Below are positions 43,875 to 51,145 of a stretch of DNA of 64,000 bases, one piece after another. Where the stretch lies: the NCBI RefSeq assembly GCF_003443535.1, contig NZ_CP031946.1, positions 2,746,501 to 2,810,500 on the forward strand. Direction: 5' to 3'. The notes under the pieces are model-generated. The model was given only the letters and a program-made list of their open reading frames with translations, was not told where the DNA came from and did not search any database. Origin of the DNA: Ruegeria sp. AD91A (GTDB lineage Bacteria > Pseudomonadota > Alphaproteobacteria > Rhodobacterales > Rhodobacteraceae). How positions within the stretch are numbered: the first letter of the stretch is position 1; every line of letters begins with the position of its first letter. A program made the translations under genes and the position numbers.

Positions 43875-44519
43875 CTATTTCGATTTCCAGCTGTCCAGCC
43901 AGCGGCGAAACCTGTTGCGCCGCTCTTCAATGGCATCACCGGCTGCATATAGCCCGTCTTCCACGTTTTCGATCATCGGATCGATCCGAGCCTGCCGGAA
44001 CCTGCGCCAACGCACCCATATCGCCCAGACCAACGCGGCAAAGATCGTCAGGAAGATGATATTGAACCAGGGAATGATCCGAACATCCGGCCCTTCTACA
44101 TCTTCGATGAAAATGGCGTTGGGAAAGATCGACATGAATTCGTTTCGCCAACCATAATGGGTCACGACCACCCATTTCGGGTTTTCCTTGGTCGACTTAG
44201 CATCATTGGCCTCGGTATAGAGGTTCGCTGTGTCGAACTTGAAATACGGCGGCCAGCCCCAACCGGTATCCTCGTTTCGGTATACGATGGGTTTTCCGTT
44301 GGCCCGCACCGCCTGAATGAACTGCACATCCCGGTTGGACAGGCTGGTGGACTGATCTTCCGGCTCTGACCAGAATATCCGGGTCCAATCGTTCAGATCC
44401 TGCCGTTCTTCATAGGTATTCACGATGCGCACAATGTCATGCTGCGGCAGCGAATACTGCAGGATCACGGCAATCGTACCCCAGAAAATGATAATGAACG
44501 CCCATTTCACATAGGCCAT
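43875..44519 (-). CDS. DUF1523-family membrane protein
   Basis: A 214-residue protein of the DUF1523 type known in Rhodobacterales. It has a helix at about 5-23, a periplasmic domain of about 120 residues rich in aromatic residues (DTGWGWPPYFKFDTANLY), a second helix at about 150-172, and a basic cytoplasmic tail. Function unknown. It is the last gene of the eight-gene minus-strand operon, 10 bases after a small membrane protein. Confidence 0.82.
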   Translation of the reverse strand: MAYVKWAFIIIFWGTIAVILQYSLPQHDIVRIVNTYEERQDLNDWTRIFWSEPEDQSTSLSNRDVQFIQAVRANGKPIVYRNEDTGWGWPPYFKFDTANLYTEANDAKSTKENPKWVVVTHYGWRNEFMSIFPNAIFIEDVEGPDVRIIPWFNIIFLTIFAALVWAIWVRWRRFRQARIDPMIENVEDGLYAAGDAIEERRNRFRRWLDSWKSK

Positions 44520-44529
44520 GCCTAAACCC

Positions 44530-44796
44530 TCACATGTAATTCACGATGTAGATCATCGCGCCAATCGCCACCCACGGCACGATATAGACACCCAAGATCA
44601 GTTTACGCCGAAACGAGTTGTCATACACATGCAATCCGCGTTCGACAAAGGCTTCCTTGTTGCCCGTCTTGCCTTTTTCATCCCACCAGGTTTCCAGTTT
44701 GCGACGGCGCATCCCGCGCGAGTAGAAAGACAGTGCGAAATAGGTAACCGTCTGGATCACCAACAAGATCAGCAAAAGGCGCAACAATCCGAACAT
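44530..44796 (-). CDS. Small two-helix membrane protein
   Basis: Not recognised. 88 residues, a hydrophobic helix at each end (about 3-22 and 66-86) joined by a basic loop that includes RGMRRRKLETWWDEKGK. Its start is 1 base after the DUF6638 gene and its stop 10 bases before the DUF1523 gene, so it is very likely cotranscribed with both. Confidence 0.72.
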   Translation of the reverse strand: MFGLLRLLLILLVIQTVTYFALSFYSRGMRRRKLETWWDEKGKTGNKEAFVERGLHVYDNSFRRKLILGVYIVPWVAIGAMIYIVNYM

Positions 44797-44797
44797 A

Positions 44798-46135
44798 TCA
44801 GCCTTTCCTCACCGAACCCCACGGGCCGACCCGTGCGATTATGTCATCGCTGACCCGATCGTCGCCGTTCATATCCGGTTCATGCCCGAAAAGCGCGGCG
44901 CGGGCGCCTTGCTTGTCCACCTGATACTCGCGTGCAAGGAAATCGGCAACATAGGCTTTCTTGCTCTCGGGCCATCTGGAATACGTGCTGTAGAACAGCT
45001 CCTTGTGGCAGATGAACATCTGGCGCGGGTCCAGCGGGGCCAGTTCGGCCAGTAACATGTTTACCAGATCACGGTTCGGCGTATTCGCGGCGCGTAACGT
45101 ATAGAAATAGGCCGGATGGTCCGAAGTGATACGCGGCCACGGCCCCCCGTCACTCGCCCAGCGCAGCAGTTGCGCCAGACCGTGATAGGCATCAGGCAGG
45201 CGATCCGAGTGGTTTCGCGCCAGTCGCCGCATGTCGCTGCGGTCCGACCCGGTCAGGTCGACATCCGCATCCGCCGCTGCGTCAACGGTCAGGAAATCCA
45301 TCTTCTGTTGCAGGATCGCGGCGGCATCCACGCCGCGCGCCTTGACGATCGGTTCGACCAGATCGTTGTAATCCAGAAACTTGGCGATTTGGTTTCGCTG
45401 TGACGGATCAAACGTGTACTTGATCGGCAGGTCGTCGGGCTTTTCGCCCATGCAGATCACGGCCGGGTGGTCTATGTCCGGAAACAAATACAGCCCACCA
45501 AAATGGGCCGTCCAGAAATTGCGCTGGTCAAACGTCGTATGGCGCAGGCGGACCGGATTGCGTGTGACATCACCGGTTTCCCTAGCGGTTTCGATCATCT
45601 TCGCGATCAGAACGTCGTCGAACCATGCATCCTCTTCGGATTTGAACTGTTCCACCATCCCCGCCAATTGCTGTGCCTTGCGCAGGGTGCCGCCTGCGGT
45701 ATCGGCCTCGATATCGATCTTGCGCAGGTTCAGCAGATCGCGGGGCGTGGTGAGTTTGATGACCGAGTTCACCAGCTCTCCGGCCACCGCATCGGTGGCG
45801 GTCAGGGCGAAAAGCTGCGCCTCGTTCATCTCGATGAACTCGCGCAGGATATCGCGCGAGGTCGAGAATTTGACGTTCAGCAGAGGCGCGCGTTTCTGTT
45901 CGGTCGTCAGCAGGATGAATTGCCGGTTGACCCCGTTGGGGTTGAGGTAAAGCTCGTCCTCCAGCTCAATCCCCACCTCCGGCGAATAGCCCGAGATATC
46001 GACATGGAAATCCGTCAACGCCGTGGTCTTGCCCGCCAGATGCTGCAACGCGCGGTTATACCGCTCGACCAGAGCCGGGCTGGAGATGTGGACGAGATTG
46101 CCGAACATCAGGCCTTTTTTGATGAGGCGGATCAT
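44798..46135 (-). CDS. DUF6638-family protein
   Basis: A soluble protein of 445 residues with no membrane segment and no catalytic motif that I can name; I associate it with DUF6638, a family reported in alphaproteobacteria next to an AAA ATPase. Composition is balanced and acidic. The start overlaps the upstream AT-richer gene by 4 bases (ATGA). A partner or adaptor of the AAA ATPase is a reasonable guess only. Confidence 0.68.
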   Translation of the reverse strand: MIRLIKKGLMFGNLVHISSPALVERYNRALQHLAGKTTALTDFHVDISGYSPEVGIELEDELYLNPNGVNRQFILLTTEQKRAPLLNVKFSTSRDILREFIEMNEAQLFALTATDAVAGELVNSVIKLTTPRDLLNLRKIDIEADTAGGTLRKAQQLAGMVEQFKSEEDAWFDDVLIAKMIETARETGDVTRNPVRLRHTTFDQRNFWTAHFGGLYLFPDIDHPAVICMGEKPDDLPIKYTFDPSQRNQIAKFLDYNDLVEPIVKARGVDAAAILQQKMDFLTVDAAADADVDLTGSDRSDMRRLARNHSDRLPDAYHGLAQLLRWASDGGPWPRITSDHPAYFYTLRAANTPNRDLVNMLLAELAPLDPRQMFICHKELFYSTYSRWPESKKAYVADFLAREYQVDKQGARAALFGHEPDMNGDDRVSDDIIARVGPWGSVRKG

Positions 46136-46719
46136 GTTCTTTCGCCTTCAAGCATGTGTGCATTCTTTATGTCGTGCTTCAAGCGCTCCCATTCATGTTT
46201 CAATATCTTTTGCGAAACCTCTCGGAGCGCAACCAACTCGCTCATATCAGGATCTTCGGCTCCAAACTCGCCCGACGCGCTTTTTAGATGCTCTCGTAAA
46301 CTGTCATAATTCGGATCCTTTGGATTGAGCCGCAGTAGAATACGAGAAGCCAACTCAACTTCTTCTCGCATGCTCTCTGGCCCACTTTCAGTGCTTACCA
46401 AAGACGAGAAAACCGCTAAGTCATCTCTTAGATCATCAATCCATTTCTTCCTCATTTCGGCAATCTTCATTTCTGTAGATATTAGGCGGTTTGCCGCCTC
46501 TCGCTTTTCAGATGACCTATTTGAAAGATGAGTAGTCAACAAAGCCAAACCGGAGACTAGAAACAATGTGCCCAAAGAAATAATTGTCCCGTCAAATTCT
46601 GATACCGCACTTTCGAATTTCTGCGCAAAAGATCCGGGGTACGACTGCAAAAGCAGCAGAAGTGGTGGGATTAATATCAGCACCGCCAACAAGAAAAAGA
46701 CTATCGCCAAGTCCTTCAC
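46132..46719 (-). CDS. AT-richer two-helix membrane protein with helical tail
   Basis: Not recognised. 195 residues: two hydrophobic segments (about 4-24 and 46-62) and a long charged helical cytoplasmic part. The codons are visibly more AT-rich than those of the genes on both sides, so it looks inserted into an older operon. The start is GTG in the overlap with the ATPase stop, and its own stop overlaps the DUF6638 start, so translation stays coupled. Confidence 0.65.
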   Translation of the reverse strand: MKDLAIVFFLLAVLILIPPLLLLLQSYPGSFAQKFESAVSEFDGTIISLGTLFLVSGLALLTTHLSNRSSEKREAANRLISTEMKIAEMRKKWIDDLRDDLAVFSSLVSTESGPESMREEVELASRILLRLNPKDPNYDSLREHLKSASGEFGAEDPDMSELVALREVSQKILKHEWERLKHDIKNAHMLEGERT

Positions 46720-48647
46720 CCCTTCCCCTCCAGATACCGCCGTTTGGCTTCTTCCATCCGGCCCATCTCACGCACCGCGTTCTCAATGGCGACCTCGTCG
46801 CTTTTGTCGGCATAGCGGAATTCGCTGTCGGCGTAGCGGTTGATCTCTTGCATCACCATTTCCACCGTGATCGGCTGGCGCAGGTCTTCAATCATGGCCT
46901 TCTTGGTGTCGTAGTCGCGGAACAGGAACAGGTCGGGGTTTTCCATCCACTCGTCAGGCAGTTCGAAATCCATCGCGCGGACCTTGACGGCGTCGGTGAT
47001 GTTCTTGATCGCGCGGCCGGTAAAGCGCTCATCCGCCTGCTGGATTGCCTTGAGATAGGTGCCCATCTTGGCAATCGTATCCATCTGGCCGATATCGCCG
47101 GACACCCGGTCATAAACCTGCAGCAGAGCGTCCTCATGCGGGCGCGAGTGGCTTTCGAAACTGGCGGCGACGGCCTTCTTGATTTCCTGCGCGGCGTAGG
47201 CTTCGTGTTCGCCCAGCGGGATGTCGTGGTCGCGGCCCATCAGCAGGTGCAGGATGTCGATGTAATCCTCGCGCGTTTGCGGCCCATCCACCAGGAACCG
47301 CGCGCCCGCCCGTTGACGCAAGGCGTCGTCCACATTCTCGGGGTAGTTCGAGAACATGCCAAAGGTGCAGTTGCCGCGTACAACGGTGTTGGCGCCGGCA
47401 AAGCTCTCCATCAATACGGCGGTAATTTCCAGTTGCCCAGCTGACGACTGCCGGTCGCCGCGTTTACCCGCCAGCTGGTCGATATCATCGATGGTACCAA
47501 AGCCGATGACCGAGGGGTCGATGATCGTGTTGATAAACGCCTTGGCGTTCTGGCCGGATTTACCCTGATAGCTGTCGATATTGTCGGTGCTCAGGTTCTG
47601 ATAGCGGAATGGATAGCCCGCGTTCTGGCAATAGTCGTTGATCAGCCCTGCCATCATCTGGATCAGGGTGGTCTTGCCGGTGCCCGGTTTGCCATCGCCC
47701 ATGAAAGTAAAGATGAACCCGCCAAGCTCGGCAAACGGGTTCAGGCGGCGGTCGAAGTCATAGGCCATCACCATCTTGGCCAGCTTCATCGCCTGATACT
47801 TGGCGATGTGGTTGCCGACCACTTCGTTCGGTTTCTTGAACGTCATGGTCAAAGTGGTGGATTTGGCTTTTGAGGCCGGCTCAAAACCCCTGATCGTCAG
47901 ATCATCGGCCTCGATATGCCAGGCGGCGTTCTGGAACGGGGCCAGATGGCCCGCGGATTGGGCGCGCAGGGCGGTCTTTTCCATCAGTTGTTCGGCATAG
48001 GCGCTGGTGGCGGCAATCAGGTGGGCATCGTCGGGGGCGTGTTTGGCCAGTGTCTGATCCAGCTCCCACAACGCACCGTGCAGGGCCAATTGACCATTGT
48101 CGGTCAGAACCTCTTCGATCTCATCGAGGTCAACCGTGGTTTCGCCCAGATGCGAGGACATCAGATAGGCCAGCGCATTGCCGAAGGTGTGCGAGGTGAT
48201 CAAAGCCTCGGCCGTCAGCAGTTCCGAGAATTCGGTCTTGCGCGCGGCAGGCAGGTCACCGGCGAGGTTTGCGCGTTTAAGGTCGGACAGCGGGGTTTGT
48301 TCCGCATAAGCCTCGGCCACGGCCAGAGCGATGGCAATGGCCCGGCGAATGGCCTGCTGTGTGGTGGCCTGTGGCGGCGAGACCAGCGCATCGCCATCAT
48401 CCGACGCCTCAATCCGTTCGACCAGATGTACACCATCCGCGCGTGCCGTACGCCGAGTCACCAAACCCGGAGTCGTCGAGCGAAACCGCCGCCCGGTCGA
48501 CACGCCCGGAGACCGTTCGACGGCGGCCGCAACGGGTTTGGCGATCCGCGGCGCGTGTTCGAACCCGTTCACCAAGGCGGTCGCTGCCGGATAATGCTTG
48601 CGGATATCGTCTTCGCGCAGTTCCATCTGGTCTGACGTCAAACTCAT
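46716..48647 (-). CDS. AAA+ ATPase of unknown role
   Basis: A 643-residue ATPase. The first 300 residues are a helical domain of unknown type; the AAA+ module then shows Walker A GDGKPGTGKTT (about 316-326), Walker B FGTIDDIDQ (about 384-392), a sensor-1 segment FGMFSNYPENVDD and LRQRAGARF with a possible arginine finger. The remaining 180 residues form a lid and a charged C-terminal helix. It is not a close match to MoxR, FtsH, ClpX or RuvB. Centre of the eight-gene unit. Confidence 0.75.
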   Translation of the reverse strand: MSLTSDQMELREDDIRKHYPAATALVNGFEHAPRIAKPVAAAVERSPGVSTGRRFRSTTPGLVTRRTARADGVHLVERIEASDDGDALVSPPQATTQQAIRRAIAIALAVAEAYAEQTPLSDLKRANLAGDLPAARKTEFSELLTAEALITSHTFGNALAYLMSSHLGETTVDLDEIEEVLTDNGQLALHGALWELDQTLAKHAPDDAHLIAATSAYAEQLMEKTALRAQSAGHLAPFQNAAWHIEADDLTIRGFEPASKAKSTTLTMTFKKPNEVVGNHIAKYQAMKLAKMVMAYDFDRRLNPFAELGGFIFTFMGDGKPGTGKTTLIQMMAGLINDYCQNAGYPFRYQNLSTDNIDSYQGKSGQNAKAFINTIIDPSVIGFGTIDDIDQLAGKRGDRQSSAGQLEITAVLMESFAGANTVVRGNCTFGMFSNYPENVDDALRQRAGARFLVDGPQTREDYIDILHLLMGRDHDIPLGEHEAYAAQEIKKAVAASFESHSRPHEDALLQVYDRVSGDIGQMDTIAKMGTYLKAIQQADERFTGRAIKNITDAVKVRAMDFELPDEWMENPDLFLFRDYDTKKAMIEDLRQPITVEMVMQEINRYADSEFRYADKSDEVAIENAVREMGRMEEAKRRYLEGKG

Positions 48648-48669
48648 TTCAAAATCGCCTTTGCATTTC

Positions 48670-49788
48670 TCAATATTTCAAAACCTGCCCAGCCTTGCTG
48701 ACGACGAACTTGCGCACATCGGCAAAGCCTGGCGGGTTTCGTTCGGCCAGCACCTGAAACGGGCGCTGGGGCAGAATGATGGATCGCTGGGTGCGCGTGG
48801 CCCCTGTTTCCACCCCCTGCCCGCCGAACGGGTCCAGTGCGAAGACCTCGCGCTCGACCGTGGAAAACCACCCGGCGCGCTCTTCGATCACTTCTTCGCT
48901 TTGCAGCTCTTCAGTGGTCCAGGCCAGCGCCCAGTCTTCACCCTGCGGAGATTGCGCGTCCTCCAGCACTTGCCGCAGGGGGCCGGACTGCTCGGTGTAG
49001 GCTGAGGAATACATCGGTCCCACATGAATGCGGCGCAAATGCTTGGGATGGAGGTCGTCGAAATCCTGATCGAACCCTTTGGCGATCGTCACCAGTTTCA
49101 AACCGCCCAGCGCTTGCGCCATCAGATGCGCCTGTACTTCGGGCCAGCGACGTTGATCTTTGGGCAAAGCGGTCTTGCCGCTATCCTCAAGCTGCATCAG
49201 GTAAATGACCGGCAGGTTGATCTGGCTGTCATAAACCGCCCAGTGGATCATGAACTTGCGCCGCTCGCCCTCATTCCCGATCCAGTGGCATTCGGGATCG
49301 TTGCGGGCCCAGAACAGCTGACCCTTCAGCAATTCCTCGTAATAGAGCCTTTGGGACAGCGCGAATTGCAGTTTGGTGGGGATTTCCTGTTCGCTGATGA
49401 TGGTGCGCACCATGTCGGTCTTAAGGTCATCTTCCGAGGGCATATTCGCCAGATGCACCTGCGCTTGCTGCGCGTCATTGGCCATGGTCAGCAGCTCGGC
49501 CGCCACCGGAAACCCGCTGTCGCGCTTGTCCATGGCAAGACTGCCAAAGAACCGCCCGGTATCGCGCCCGACCAGCAGGTATTTCATGCTGAGCGCGCGG
49601 AAGGTGTAGAGCAGCCCCGAGAGGTAGCGCGACACGATCCGCACTTCTTGTTTCGAGATCGCGCCCTCCGCCTCCATCGTCGCGGCCACGCGCAGGAGGT
49701 GAACAGTGATCACCTCAAATTTGCGGAAATACCGTCGCGAGGCGAAAGTGTCGGTCAGGCCGACATGGTCTTGGGTGGGGTTAGTCAT
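48670..49788 (-). CDS. Conserved-looking protein of unknown function in the AAA+ operon
   Basis: Not recognised. 372 residues, soluble, mixed alpha/beta composition, with many Gln, Leu and charged residues and no signal or membrane segment. I used the ATG at 49788 (begins MTNPTQDHVGL), which lies 8 bases inside the upstream small membrane gene; a longer frame to 49845 is less likely. The ATPase gene starts 22 bases after it. Confidence 0.66.
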   Translation of the reverse strand: MTNPTQDHVGLTDTFASRRYFRKFEVITVHLLRVAATMEAEGAISKQEVRIVSRYLSGLLYTFRALSMKYLLVGRDTGRFFGSLAMDKRDSGFPVAAELLTMANDAQQAQVHLANMPSEDDLKTDMVRTIISEQEIPTKLQFALSQRLYYEELLKGQLFWARNDPECHWIGNEGERRKFMIHWAVYDSQINLPVIYLMQLEDSGKTALPKDQRRWPEVQAHLMAQALGGLKLVTIAKGFDQDFDDLHPKHLRRIHVGPMYSSAYTEQSGPLRQVLEDAQSPQGEDWALAWTTEELQSEEVIEERAGWFSTVEREVFALDPFGGQGVETGATRTQRSIILPQRPFQVLAERNPPGFADVRKFVVSKAGQVLKY

Positions 49789-50056
49789 TATCCACGCGCT
49801 CTTTTCTTTGTCGGTGGCCGAATAACTTCTCATCAAGCTGTTCAAGCTTGATCAGACCGTTGGCGAACAAAACGCAGAGGCAGAATGTCGCCAAGAGAAC
49901 ACCCACTATCAGCACAAGTTTGATCACCAAGTGGTCTGGCGTCCAATCGGCTGTCAGAAGAAACAAAGTCAGGAACCCGCCGAAGACAACAAAGAGAATC
50001 CCTATCCTGAACCTGTAGCGTATTCCTTTTGGCTTGCCTTTGGAATGGAACGTCAC
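49781..50056 (-). CDS. Small two-helix membrane protein, GTG start
   Basis: Not recognised. 91 residues, hydrophobic segments at about 18-37 and 45-68, a basic N-terminus and a charged C-terminus (LFGHRQRKERVDND). It begins with GTG 9 bases after the coiled-coil gene and overlaps the next start by 8 bases. The bases are a little more AT-rich than in its neighbours. Confidence 0.66.
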   Translation of the reverse strand: MTFHSKGKPKGIRYRFRIGILFVVFGGFLTLFLLTADWTPDHLVIKLVLIVGVLLATFCLCVLFANGLIKLEQLDEKLFGHRQRKERVDND

Positions 50057-50065
50057 TGAAGCGCA

Positions 50066-51145
50066 TCACCCCCCGTACAAATTCTTATCATGCTTCTCGA
50101 CAATCGAAGCAAACCGGCGGGCAAAGCGTTCATCTGCCTTGGCCTTTTTCTCCAGCACGTCGCGGGCAAAGACCATGTGGTCCTCATGCGCCTCAAGCAT
50201 GTCGGCCATCTTCTGGTTGGTCGCGGTGCCGATTGAGGCCATGGCGGTTTGCGCCTCTTGATCGGTCTGCACACCGATCTCGTTGATGCGGTGGGCCACG
50301 TCCTGCTGCTGTGCAGTTTTCAGCGATTTGGTCAGGGCGTCATACAGCACCACGCGCTGTTGCGTGTCTGTCTGCAGCTTGTTGATCAGCACCATCTGTG
50401 TCGCCGCCTGGTTTTGCAGTGAATCGACCCAGGTCTTGCCCTTTTCGATATAGCGTTCCAGCGTTTGCGATTTGGCCAGCTTGACCTGCTCTTCCTGAAC
50501 CTTGGCGTTGTATTGTTTGTTCAGCTCGGCCAATTCGGTTTCCAACTGCGTGCGCGCGGCGGCGTCCTGTTCGACGCTGATCTTGTTTTCCAGCGTAATA
50601 ATGGCCGGGTCCATGCCCTGAATCTCAGCGCGTAAGGCTTCCAGCTCGGCCACGGTCGCCTCGCGATCGTCCAGCGTGCCGGTCAGGTTGTCCTCGACCT
50701 TGACGCGTTGTTCTTCCAGCACGGCCAACTGCCCTTCCAGTAGTTTGACGATCACGTCGGATTTGGCGATCAGGTCCTGCAGCTTGTCGTCGATATTGGC
50801 CGTGCGCATGCGTTCCTGCCGCATCGACTCGGATTTGCCTTTCGAGAAGATGCCGACAAAGGTCTCCCACCCGGATTTCGAGCGCATCTCGTCAAAATCC
50901 TTGGAAAAGGCGCTGGTGACGTCGTCCAGACCCATGATCAGCTCGGCGATATTGGCGTTCATCACCTCGGTATGGGCATGCACATCCTCGAGCGTGGCGT
51001 TTTCGATGTCGATATCGGCCTCGGCGGTGCCTATCTTGGCGCGGGCGGCTTCAATACGCGAGGTCAGCCCTTCGATCTGAGACTGGCTTTCGCGCACTTT
51101 GGTTTGCGTTTCCTGAATAAGCGCTTCGAATTGCTGGTTCGACAT
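50066..51145 (-). CDS. Long coiled-coil protein at head of AAA+ operon
   Basis: Not recognised. 359 residues, almost all helical, with heptad-like runs (for example VLEEQRVKVEDNL and LETELAELNKQYNAKVQEE) and few Cys or Pro. No signal peptide or membrane helix, so it is cytosolic. In size and build it resembles TelA/YceH toxic-anion-resistance proteins, but I cannot show homology. First gene of the eight-gene unit; the ATG at 51145 follows a GAGG-type site. Confidence 0.7.
   Translation of the reverse strand: MSNQQFEALIQETQTKVRESQSQIEGLTSRIEAARAKIGTAEADIDIENATLEDVHAHTEVMNANIAELIMGLDDVTSAFSKDFDEMRSKSGWETFVGIFSKGKSESMRQERMRTANIDDKLQDLIAKSDVIVKLLEGQLAVLEEQRVKVEDNLTGTLDDREATVAELEALRAEIQGMDPAIITLENKISVEQDAAARTQLETELAELNKQYNAKVQEEQVKLAKSQTLERYIEKGKTWVDSLQNQAATQMVLINKLQTDTQQRVVLYDALTKSLKTAQQQDVAHRINEIGVQTDQEAQTAMASIGTATNQKMADMLEAHEDHMVFARDVLEKKAKADERFARRFASIVEKHDKNLYGG

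Follow-up and report, generated by a model that had tools for sequence, protein, structure and literature searches.

Two hypervariable gene slots within a conserved AAA+ ATPase operon of marine Roseobacter bacteria

The analysed window, a stretch of 64,000 nucleotides from Ruegeria sp. AD91A (contig NZ_CP031946.1), contains eight intact ORFs between positions 43875 and 51145, all on the minus strand. In operon order, these encode a coiled-coil protein of 359 aa without transmembrane (TM) segments (CC, core gene 1; 50066..51145), a 91-aa two-TM protein with a GTG start (49781..50056), a 372-aa protein whose start, MTNPTQ, was set by alignment (U372, core gene 2; 48670..49788), an AAA+ ATPase of 643 aa (core gene 3; 46716..48647; PF00004), a 195-aa protein with a GTG start, two N-terminal TM helices and a polar tail (46132..46719), a DUF6638 protein of 445 aa (core gene 4; 44798..46135; PF20343), an 88-aa protein with two TM segments (TM3, first gene of a membrane unit; 44530..44796) and a DUF1523 protein of 214 aa (second gene of that unit; 43875..44519; PF07509). 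Successive genes are separated by 9, -8, 22, -4, -4, 1 and 10 nt. The sequence-only reading had described precisely this compact arrangement, from overlaps to gaps of 22 bases, and both its layout and its protein list were borne out, the latter by Pfam and by a simple hydropathy scan that found two hydrophobic segments in each of the 91-, 195- and 88-aa proteins. Comparison with relatives divides the operon into a conserved cytosolic core (CC, U372, ATPase and DUF6638), a membrane pair (TM3 and DUF1523) and two hypervariable slots, S1 (49789..50065, minus strand, 277 nt in this genome) and S2 (46136..46715, minus strand, 580 nt), both delimited by gap statistics and pairwise DNA similarity.

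The DUF6638 and DUF1523 proteins match their families at 768.5 bits (curated cut-off 27) and 240.4 bits (curated cut-off 23), respectively, and the latter carries hydrophobic segments at residues 1 and 145. U372 is predicted to be helical in its N-terminal and beta-rich in its C-terminal part. AlphaFold models of U372 (pLDDT 85.6) and DUF6638 (pLDDT 79.5) gave no confident match in fold searches of the PDB, and neither protein has a solved-structure relative by sequence at E up to 1. For CC, 5400 homologues were retained out of 8000 candidates scored, and solved structures matched it by sequence in coiled-coil pieces only. We found no description of the operon and no mention of DUF6638 in the open-licence PMC literature; the excerpts of that literature that name DUF1523 do so incidentally.

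Classical AAA ATPases are marked by Walker A and Walker B motifs, a sensor Asn and Arg residues, and Walker B normally carries a catalytic Glu. The ATPase, encoded by a single-copy gene, reaches 45.7 bits against PF00004 (cut-off 21.2); its Walker A (GKPGTGKT) is a good match, N434 lies within the sensor-1 segment, and R444, R446 and R450 are invariant in 15 aligned sequences. It is thus a classical AAA ATPase by family and motifs, with Asp at the position of the Walker B Glu (GTIDDID). All 15 aligned homologues carry this Asp, as does the Vibrio protein, and Walker B is therefore a conserved variant. Of the two motifs previously called intact, the description holds for Walker A and has to be amended for Walker B. 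The only match to a solved structure by sequence is a weak one to an i-AAA protease. A phage-borne operon was not supported: a search of 50,697 phage records at E 1e-5 gave no match to the ATPase.

We compared 98 loci, comprising 80 kept loci of ATPase relatives (74-98% ATPase identity), 17 found via PF20343 and the window's own; at least two genomes were apparently counted twice (L015/L098 and L022/L095). The 17 were drawn from 20 genomes, besides the window's own, with PF20343 over its cut-off. The R. pomeroyi ATPase shows 80% identity to the window's. In 70 of the 80 loci, all six core genes share one order and one strand. Six of the remaining ten were cut by or close to contig ends, TM3 was not recognised in L097, no DUF6638 lay within 8 kb in L070 and L080, and L069, a MAG, had the ATPase without other core genes. 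The first four core genes were likewise collinear in all 17 genomes fetched via PF20343, so that the synteny on which the sequence-only reading had staked its proposal is present elsewhere. The four-gene core also occurs in Sinorhizobium and Vibrio, with ATPase identities of 52% (Sinorhizobium meliloti) and 39% (Vibrio) and a match of the CC profile to the Vibrio CC protein at E 3.4e-95; the membrane pair is joined to it in Rhodobacteraceae. Among 248 genomes, taken as Rhodobacteraceae from the names of the relatives, DUF6638 is found in 112, nearly all of different genera, and absent from 136. DUF1523 occurs in 61 of 70 family genomes and is therefore not tied to the ATPase. In the Ruegeria group (14 named Ruegeria genomes, L058, L060 and L065 under other names, and the window's), the operon stably adjoins flagellar genes, with no evident defence island.

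That two hypervariable slots lie within this conserved operon is well supported. S1 directly follows the CC gene and S2 the ATPase gene. The CC-to-U372 distance ranges from -8 to 780 nt (median 261, n = 95) and the ATPase-to-DUF6638 distance from -1 to 2382 nt (median 617, n = 94), whereas the DUF6638-to-TM3 gap has a median of 1 nt (79 of 81 below 100 nt, two at or above) and the TM3-to-DUF1523 gap spans 2-17 nt (n = 81). A rare third slot between U372 and the ATPase holds ORFs in 8/97 loci. Within the 18 Ruegeria-group genomes, core DNA identity is 85-89% (medians), yet similarity covered less than 20% of S1 in 144 of 153 pairs and of S2 in 147 of 153. Similarity stops at the stop codon of the preceding gene (CC for S1, the ATPase for S2) and restarts at the start codon of the next (U372 and DUF6638, respectively). 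Slots may also be empty: both are in Vibrio (gaps of 64 and 48 nt), and S1 is in five f160 loci (-8 to 56 nt), which indicates that they are dispensable for the role of the core there. The membrane-bound ATPase machine proposed earlier thus stands as a syntenic, ATPase-centred set with membrane partners, and falls as a fixed list of eight parts, because the 91- and 195-aa proteins are swapped for unrelated genes in most relatives.

The 91-aa protein has a relative in only one of the 17 other Ruegeria-group genomes (L062, 93% DNA identity), with a dS of 0.17, where the core genes of these two genomes give 0.51-0.59. The 195-aa protein has 7 homologues, itself included, in 5.8 billion proteins, in a search limited to relatives sharing exact words, and three matches in the 248 family genomes, two of them within 3 kb of DUF6638. 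Slot ORFs were called mechanically, and some short ones are spurious. TM segments were predicted in 50 of 56 occupied S1 loci and 58 of 81 occupied S2 loci, and median GC is 0.064-0.066 lower in the slots than in the core. Where testable, recurring slot genes are under purifying selection, with dN/dS of 0.13-0.30 in 10 of 14 pairs and saturation in the other four. Coverage by ORFs in operon direction exceeded that in the opposite one in 42 of 48 S1 and 77 of 79 S2 slots.

Slot families are largely position-specific: 30 of 31 multi-member families were confined to one slot, against a mean of 12.4 and a maximum of 20 in 2000 permutations. In DUF6638-carrying genomes, L114-type genes lay within 3 kb of DUF6638 in 26 cases and elsewhere in none, L055-type genes in seven and one, respectively; across all 248 genomes, seven of nine L055-type matches were this close. 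Weak relatives outside such operons were seen on plasmids, two for the L055 type and one for the 195-aa protein. Fourfold-site diversity falls to 0.19 at slot edges, from 0.338 in the rest of the four core genes and 0.40 at core ends away from slots, and synonymous diversity declines towards the slots in all four core genes (rho 0.67-0.98). Duplicated core ends were found in 3 of 160 slots, suggesting a mechanism by which a single gene could be swapped within an operon by homology alone. Together with purifying selection and slot-specific families, the diversity dip and the duplicated ends are signs of exchange by recombination. Replacement of slot genes takes in whole ORFs, and S1 draws on a different gene pool from S2. 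In the Ruegeria group, none of the 11 pairs that matched in one slot matched in both, and S1 and S2 as cognate pairs are therefore unsupported there. Over the 52 loci with both slots filled, families of both slots were shared in 6 of 1326 locus pairs with 2.3 expected, so that the two slots may be weakly linked.

These results bear on the proposal that the slots are passive landing sites, insertion-tolerant intercistronic positions whose genes hitchhike on operon expression without working with the core. Borders lying exactly at stop and start codons would fit, as would duplicated core ends left by recombination and the few occupants that resemble general genes (Mrr, and a gene with an endonuclease domain in the Sinorhizobium operon). 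However, we consider this improbable given the confinement of families to one slot, the ties of L114- and L055-type genes to the vicinity of DUF6638, the co-orientation of slot ORFs and their purifying selection where testable, and DUF6638-TM3-DUF1523 junctions that are nearly free of inserts.

Family scans covered 94 of the 100 S2 ORFs of the 80 loci (six doubtful ones dropped), 53 of 58 ORFs in S1 and 7 of 8 in the third slot, together with the S2 and S1 occupants of the window; slot ORFs of the 17 loci found via PF20343 entered the clustering but not these scans. Most slot proteins have no recognisable domain. Occupants of S1 match eight Pfam families at E 0.01, of which one, DUF4279, is clear. 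Matches in S2 include Mrr_cat (E 1.7e-32), AbiJ_NTD4 and DUF433, weak ones to HNH, HEPN and HATPase, and one or two that are not conflict-like (Thioredoxin_7, DUF255). Ten of 95 S2 proteins match a phage protein family of unknown role and none of 61 S1 proteins matches a phage family; Agrobacterium phage Atu_ph08 has a partial relative for each of the occupants of L055, L108 and L120. Defence-gene enrichment of S2 was unsupported: PADLOC matched 4 of 95 S2 proteins (E 5e-33, 7.6e-9, 2.5e-5 and 7e-4) and 4 to 6 proteins, all weakly, in a control of 95 length-matched flanking ORFs (of 100 drawn). The same sets hold 17 and 76 Pfam families, respectively, indicating that S2 genes are poor in known domains.

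The matches to Mrr_cat, AbiJ_NTD4 and DUF433, the weak ones to HNH, HEPN and HATPase, the phage-family matches and the relatives in Atu_ph08 may be taken as hints of a conflict function in the slots. Our preferred reading, to which we give a probability of roughly 0.4, is a conflict system directed against phages or competitors, driven by the AAA+ ATPase, linked to the membrane and equipped with exchangeable effectors or partners. The core would assemble at the inner membrane with TM3 and DUF1523. Phage infection or a competitor's attack would then trigger the ATPase to remodel the assembly of CC, U372 and DUF6638, and this remodelling would activate or position the slot proteins. At the membrane, these would block entry or kill the cell; in a minority of genomes they might instead be nucleases or other toxins. 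Phages or rivals would select for rare slot alleles, which we propose as the reason for their rapid exchange. Several results weigh against this reading: PADLOC matches in S2 do not exceed the control, most slot proteins show no known domain, Thioredoxin_7 and DUF255 do not suggest conflict, S1 proteins match no phage family, slots are empty in Vibrio and in part in the f160 loci, the Ruegeria-group operon keeps its place beside flagellar genes, and weak relatives of two occupants lie on plasmids outside such operons. A related joint claim, which we put forward tentatively, is that of a polymorphic machine in which the AAA+ core takes non-homologous membrane partners ('idiomorphs') from two series, independent of each other and each specific to its slot. 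Recombination at core ends would exchange these partners as entire ORFs, and the machine would confer strain-specific immunity or recognition; it would be a previously undescribed class, widespread among Roseobacters, whose core has relatives in Sinorhizobium and Vibrio.

Envelope maintenance is a rather unlikely alternative, in which the core and the TM3-DUF1523 pair would act on inner-membrane proteins during stress, by extracting, assembling or protecting them. The slot proteins would then be adaptors or clients specific to each lineage, and differences in the envelope from strain to strain would account for their quick change. The membrane pair, with a middle domain between its hydrophobic segments, the wide distribution of DUF1523, the stable chromosomal site and the existence of cores whose slots are empty (both in Vibrio, S1 in the f160 loci) are all consistent with such a role. 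Nevertheless, non-homologous adaptors would be unexpected at a core identity of 85-89% and where signs of recombination cluster at the slots, and DUF6638 is missing from more than half of the family genomes. Kin recognition, with slot membrane proteins as polymorphic identity tags read between cells and presented or removed by the ATPase, could explain non-homologous alleles at a single locus, signs of frequent exchange and the prevalence of small membrane proteins, but is very improbable in view of the missing toxin-immunity pairing (the co-sharing of S1 and S2 given above) and of core proteins among which family scans recognised no surface-exposed partner.

If the conflict reading is true, the 112 DUF6638-carrying genomes harbour a machine not described before, in which turnover of the partner genes greatly outpaces that of the engine, as if parts of a defence or recognition machine were swapped among marine Roseobacter bacteria. 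Testable roles would follow for DUF6638, for DUF1523 and for the family of the 372-aa protein, and dozens of new small membrane proteins, maybe shaped by phage or rival pressure, would be added. Related strains with nearly the same core and wholly different ORF-sized slots would then constitute a natural experiment.

Known systems that come close include the VMAP or MoxR-vWA ternary and GTPase-centric conflict systems, in which, according to the sections of the source concerned with them, an NTPase core adjoins interchangeable effector genes, some two-TM, and which are preponderantly found in multicellular prokaryotes (PMC7159879). The operon shares a constant NTPase core with variable neighbours, for which an effector role would be the counterpart. 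Unlike the systems in those sections, it has slots at exactly defined positions, each with a gene pool of its own, most slot proteins show no known domain, and family scans at E up to 1 found no vWA, MoxR-type AAA or GTPase in the eight operon proteins. PspA/ESCRT-III systems with Vps4-like AAA+ ATPases resemble it in that a long helical protein and membrane proteins accompany an AAA+ ATPase; the portions of the source on these systems describe no hypervariable slots (PMC11237479), and Pfam detected no PspA/IM30, Snf7 or MIT domain in the operon proteins.

One CBASS type combines a TRIP13-like AAA+ ATPase with variable effectors and HORMA and CD-NTase partners. The likeness lies in a classical AAA+ ATPase with variable genes beside it, the PADLOC TRIP13 model matching our ATPase at 25.5 bits; however, the gene set is another one, and Pfam, NCBIfam and PADLOC gave no HORMA or CD-NTase match in the eight proteins. 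Lamassu and other SMC-type systems pair a coiled-coil protein with a variable effector gene. CC weakly matches LmuB (E 0.0023), as any coiled coil may, but shows no ABC ATPase domain by Pfam; one S2 Mrr protein matches LmuA, a model that also matches two control ORFs. Finally, the coiled-coil and membrane proteins recall the TelA/Ter parts list, a likeness noted earlier that we could not support: CC has no Pfam match to TelA (PF05816) at E up to 1, its hhalign P against TelA (0.0099) equals the background of the CC profile against its own reversal (0.0096), and no Vibrio or Sinorhizobium protein is picked up by the TelA profile. A genuine TelA gene is located elsewhere in the same genome.

The eight minus-strand genes proposed at 43875-51145 were borne out, with neighbours overlapping or at most 22 nt apart, in a genome of two contigs (4.4 Mb) rated 100% complete. 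Three of the eight proteins exceeded Pfam cut-offs: AAA (PF00004), DUF6638 (PF20343), and DUF1523 (PF07509). The closest relatives of the ATPase are from Ruegeria (identity up to 98%, among the best 80 of 460 genome-scan loci). We compared 98 loci, namely the window, these 80, and 17 from further genomes. The order CC (359-aa coiled-coil protein), U372 (372-aa protein), ATPase, DUF6638, TM3 (88-aa two-TM protein), DUF1523 was retained in 70 of the 80, and CC, U372, ATPase, and DUF6638 kept it in all 17 further genomes. The exceptions were six loci cut at or near contig ends, L069 (a MAG, ATPase by itself), L070 and L080 (no DUF6638 found within 8 kb), and L097 (TM3 not recognised). The sequence-only reading had taken all eight genes as one membrane-bound ATPase machine; synteny upholds the core of this set, and the 91-aa and 195-aa membrane proteins are just the occupants, in this genome, of two hypervariable slots, S1 after CC and S2 after the ATPase. 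Homology to TelA-type stress systems, to which the operon's parts list had been likened, found no support. A genuine TelA gene lies at G000:C1:220515-221507 (PF05816, E 5.7e-108), distant from the operon.

Junction lengths distinguish two kinds of junction, rigid and not rigid. The rigid ones are DUF6638-TM3 (median 1 nt, n=81; at least 100 nt in two) and TM3-DUF1523 (2-17 nt, n=81). At S1, by contrast, CC-U372 spans -8 to 780 nt (n=95), and at S2, ATPase-DUF6638 spans -1 to 2382 nt (n=94). With ORFs of at least 60 aa counted, S1 was filled in 56/95 loci and S2 in 81/94. The U372-ATPase junction falls between the two kinds (median 70, at most 479, n=97) and forms a rare third slot, filled in 8/97 loci, with genes that appeared lipoprotein-like by eye in L056, L075, L076, L117, and L126. 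This spacer also carries a short element that by eye resembles an inverted repeat (GGCGGGCTGAAGCCCGCC-like) in L052, L053, L054, L057, and L065, i.e. 5 of the 18 Ruegeria-group loci.

Within the Ruegeria group, defined by an ATPase identity of 95% or more (18 genomes, 153 pairs), core genes had median DNA identities of 0.85-0.89, and any similarity covered less than 20% of S1 in 144 pairs and of S2 in 147. Matches over at least 70% were seen in nine pairs for S1 and two for S2 (four S2 pairs were intermediate), and none of these 11 pairs also matched in the other slot. Column identity drops to about 0.4-0.5 at the CC and ATPase stop codons and returns to 0.87-0.97 at the U372 and DUF6638 start codons. 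Across all loci, clustering gave 46 families for 63 S1 ORFs and 55 for 111 S2 ORFs. For the 195-aa occupant, searching 5.8 billion proteins gave seven homologues, counting the protein itself; for the ATPase and CC the numbers were 4068 and 5400, each out of 8000 candidates scored.

Slot genes are real and proper to their slot. They share the direction of the operon, their DNA has lower GC than the core (48/55 S1 and 69/80 S2 loci), and TM segments occur in 50/56 occupied S1 and 58/81 occupied S2 loci. Thirty of 31 multi-member families were confined to one slot, against a mean of 12.4 and a maximum of 20 in permutations. Where testable, they are under purifying selection, with dN/dS of 0.13-0.30 in 10 of 14 pairs, the other four being saturated; core genes gave 0.02-0.08 in three of the same genome pairs.

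The operon stays in place: a gene taken to be that of the flagellar P-ring adjoins it in 17/17 other Ruegeria-group loci, and an aldehyde dehydrogenase gene lies upstream in 12/17. Slot borders carry a recombination signature. Fourfold-site diversity of Ruegeria-group core genes averaged 0.19 in the 12 windows lying no more than 90 codons from a slot and 0.338 in the 47 windows over the rest of the four core genes, a difference whose permutation p is optimistic because windows are autocorrelated. It was 0.40 at core ends not facing S1 or S2, 0.64 on average in two flagellar neighbours, and 0.42 in the aldehyde dehydrogenase; each core gene showed the gradient toward the slots (rho 0.76, 0.98, 0.67, 0.78). 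The S1 gene common to the window and L062 has dS 0.17, below core dS (0.51-0.59), which suggests recent transfer. Duplicated core-gene ends were found inside 3 of 160 slots tested. In the S2 of L064, the final 151 nt of the ATPase gene, through to its stop codon, are repeated between two S2 genes (L064:10260-10433); this copy is 90% identical to the ATPase of that locus and closer to those of 15/17 other genomes. In the S1 slots of L052 and L055, U372 is repeated from its start codon onward for 56 and 53 nt, respectively. Such partial copies suggest that incoming cargo brings a stretch of core gene end with it, the trace expected of exchange through homologous recombination in the flanks.

Two hypervariable, recombining, mostly membrane-encoding positions on an ATPase core are the pattern to be expected under pressure from phages or rivals. 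Assembly at the membrane, the part played by the slot proteins, and selection by phages or rivals are inferences. A minority of S2 occupants carry conflict-type domains, i.e. Mrr_N with Mrr_cat (L067), AbiJ_NTD4 (L066), and DUF433 (L124), with weak HNH, HEPN, and HATPase/DrmA-like matches in L084, L102, and L110. Among 95 S2 proteins there were one PIN_10 and one Thioredoxin_7 match, and phrog_9267, a family of phage proteins with no assigned role, was matched by ten. One protein of Agrobacterium phage Atu_ph08, annotated as a methyl-accepting chemotaxis protein (L176:4836-5621), is partly related to the L055-type, a membrane-protein family of S2: segments of three L055-type occupants match it. 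Because PADLOC matches were no commoner in S2 (4/95) than in length-matched controls (4 to 6 of 95), we hold the conflict reading to a probability of about 0.42, above three rivals. An envelope-maintenance machine is the strongest of these and rather doubtful; a passive landing site is unlikely. Kin recognition is improbable.

Four S2 families were searched in 248 family genomes, where DUF6638 occurs in 112 (DUF1523 in 61/70). Matches lying no more than 3 kb from DUF6638, matches at another place in a genome that has DUF6638, and matches in genomes lacking it numbered 7, 1, and 1 for the L055-type family (9 matches), 2, 0, and 1 for the window's S2 protein (3), 2, 0, and 1 for the AbiJ_NTD4-bearing L066-type (3), and 26, 0, and 18 for the L114-type (44 in 43 genomes). 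In all 16 of the 18 DUF6638-less L114-type contexts examined (L136-L149, L154, L155), the TM gene is followed in the same short gene run by DUF1523, with TM3 recognised in 11; an L114-TM3-DUF1523 membrane unit therefore exists without the ATPase module. A 59-position DUF6638 remnant at G705:C3:204181-204360 suggests that the gene was lost there. Plasmids carry weak partial relatives of L055-type proteins (two) and of the 195-aa protein (one).

Distant cores were also found. Vibrio parahaemolyticus and V. vulnificus carry the four-gene core on 0.9-Mb replicons (ATPase 39% identical), with both slots empty and neither TM3 nor DUF1523 adjoining; against the proteins of one V. parahaemolyticus record, the four family profiles scored E 9.3e-83 or better. 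In L132, L133, and L135, on this secondary replicon, an mfd-annotated gene follows the core. On Sinorhizobium meliloti pSymB the core (ATPase 52% identical) is followed by a DUF2333 gene, and its S2 contains an IS as well as a gene with an endonuclease domain; five loci of the f160 family (52-55%) have an empty S1. Rhodobacteraceae-type operons in an assembly labelled Halomonas, hence nominally gammaproteobacterial (L123, ATPase 74% identical), and in a complete genome from a different class of the phylum (G329/L023, 72%) suggest horizontal transfer.
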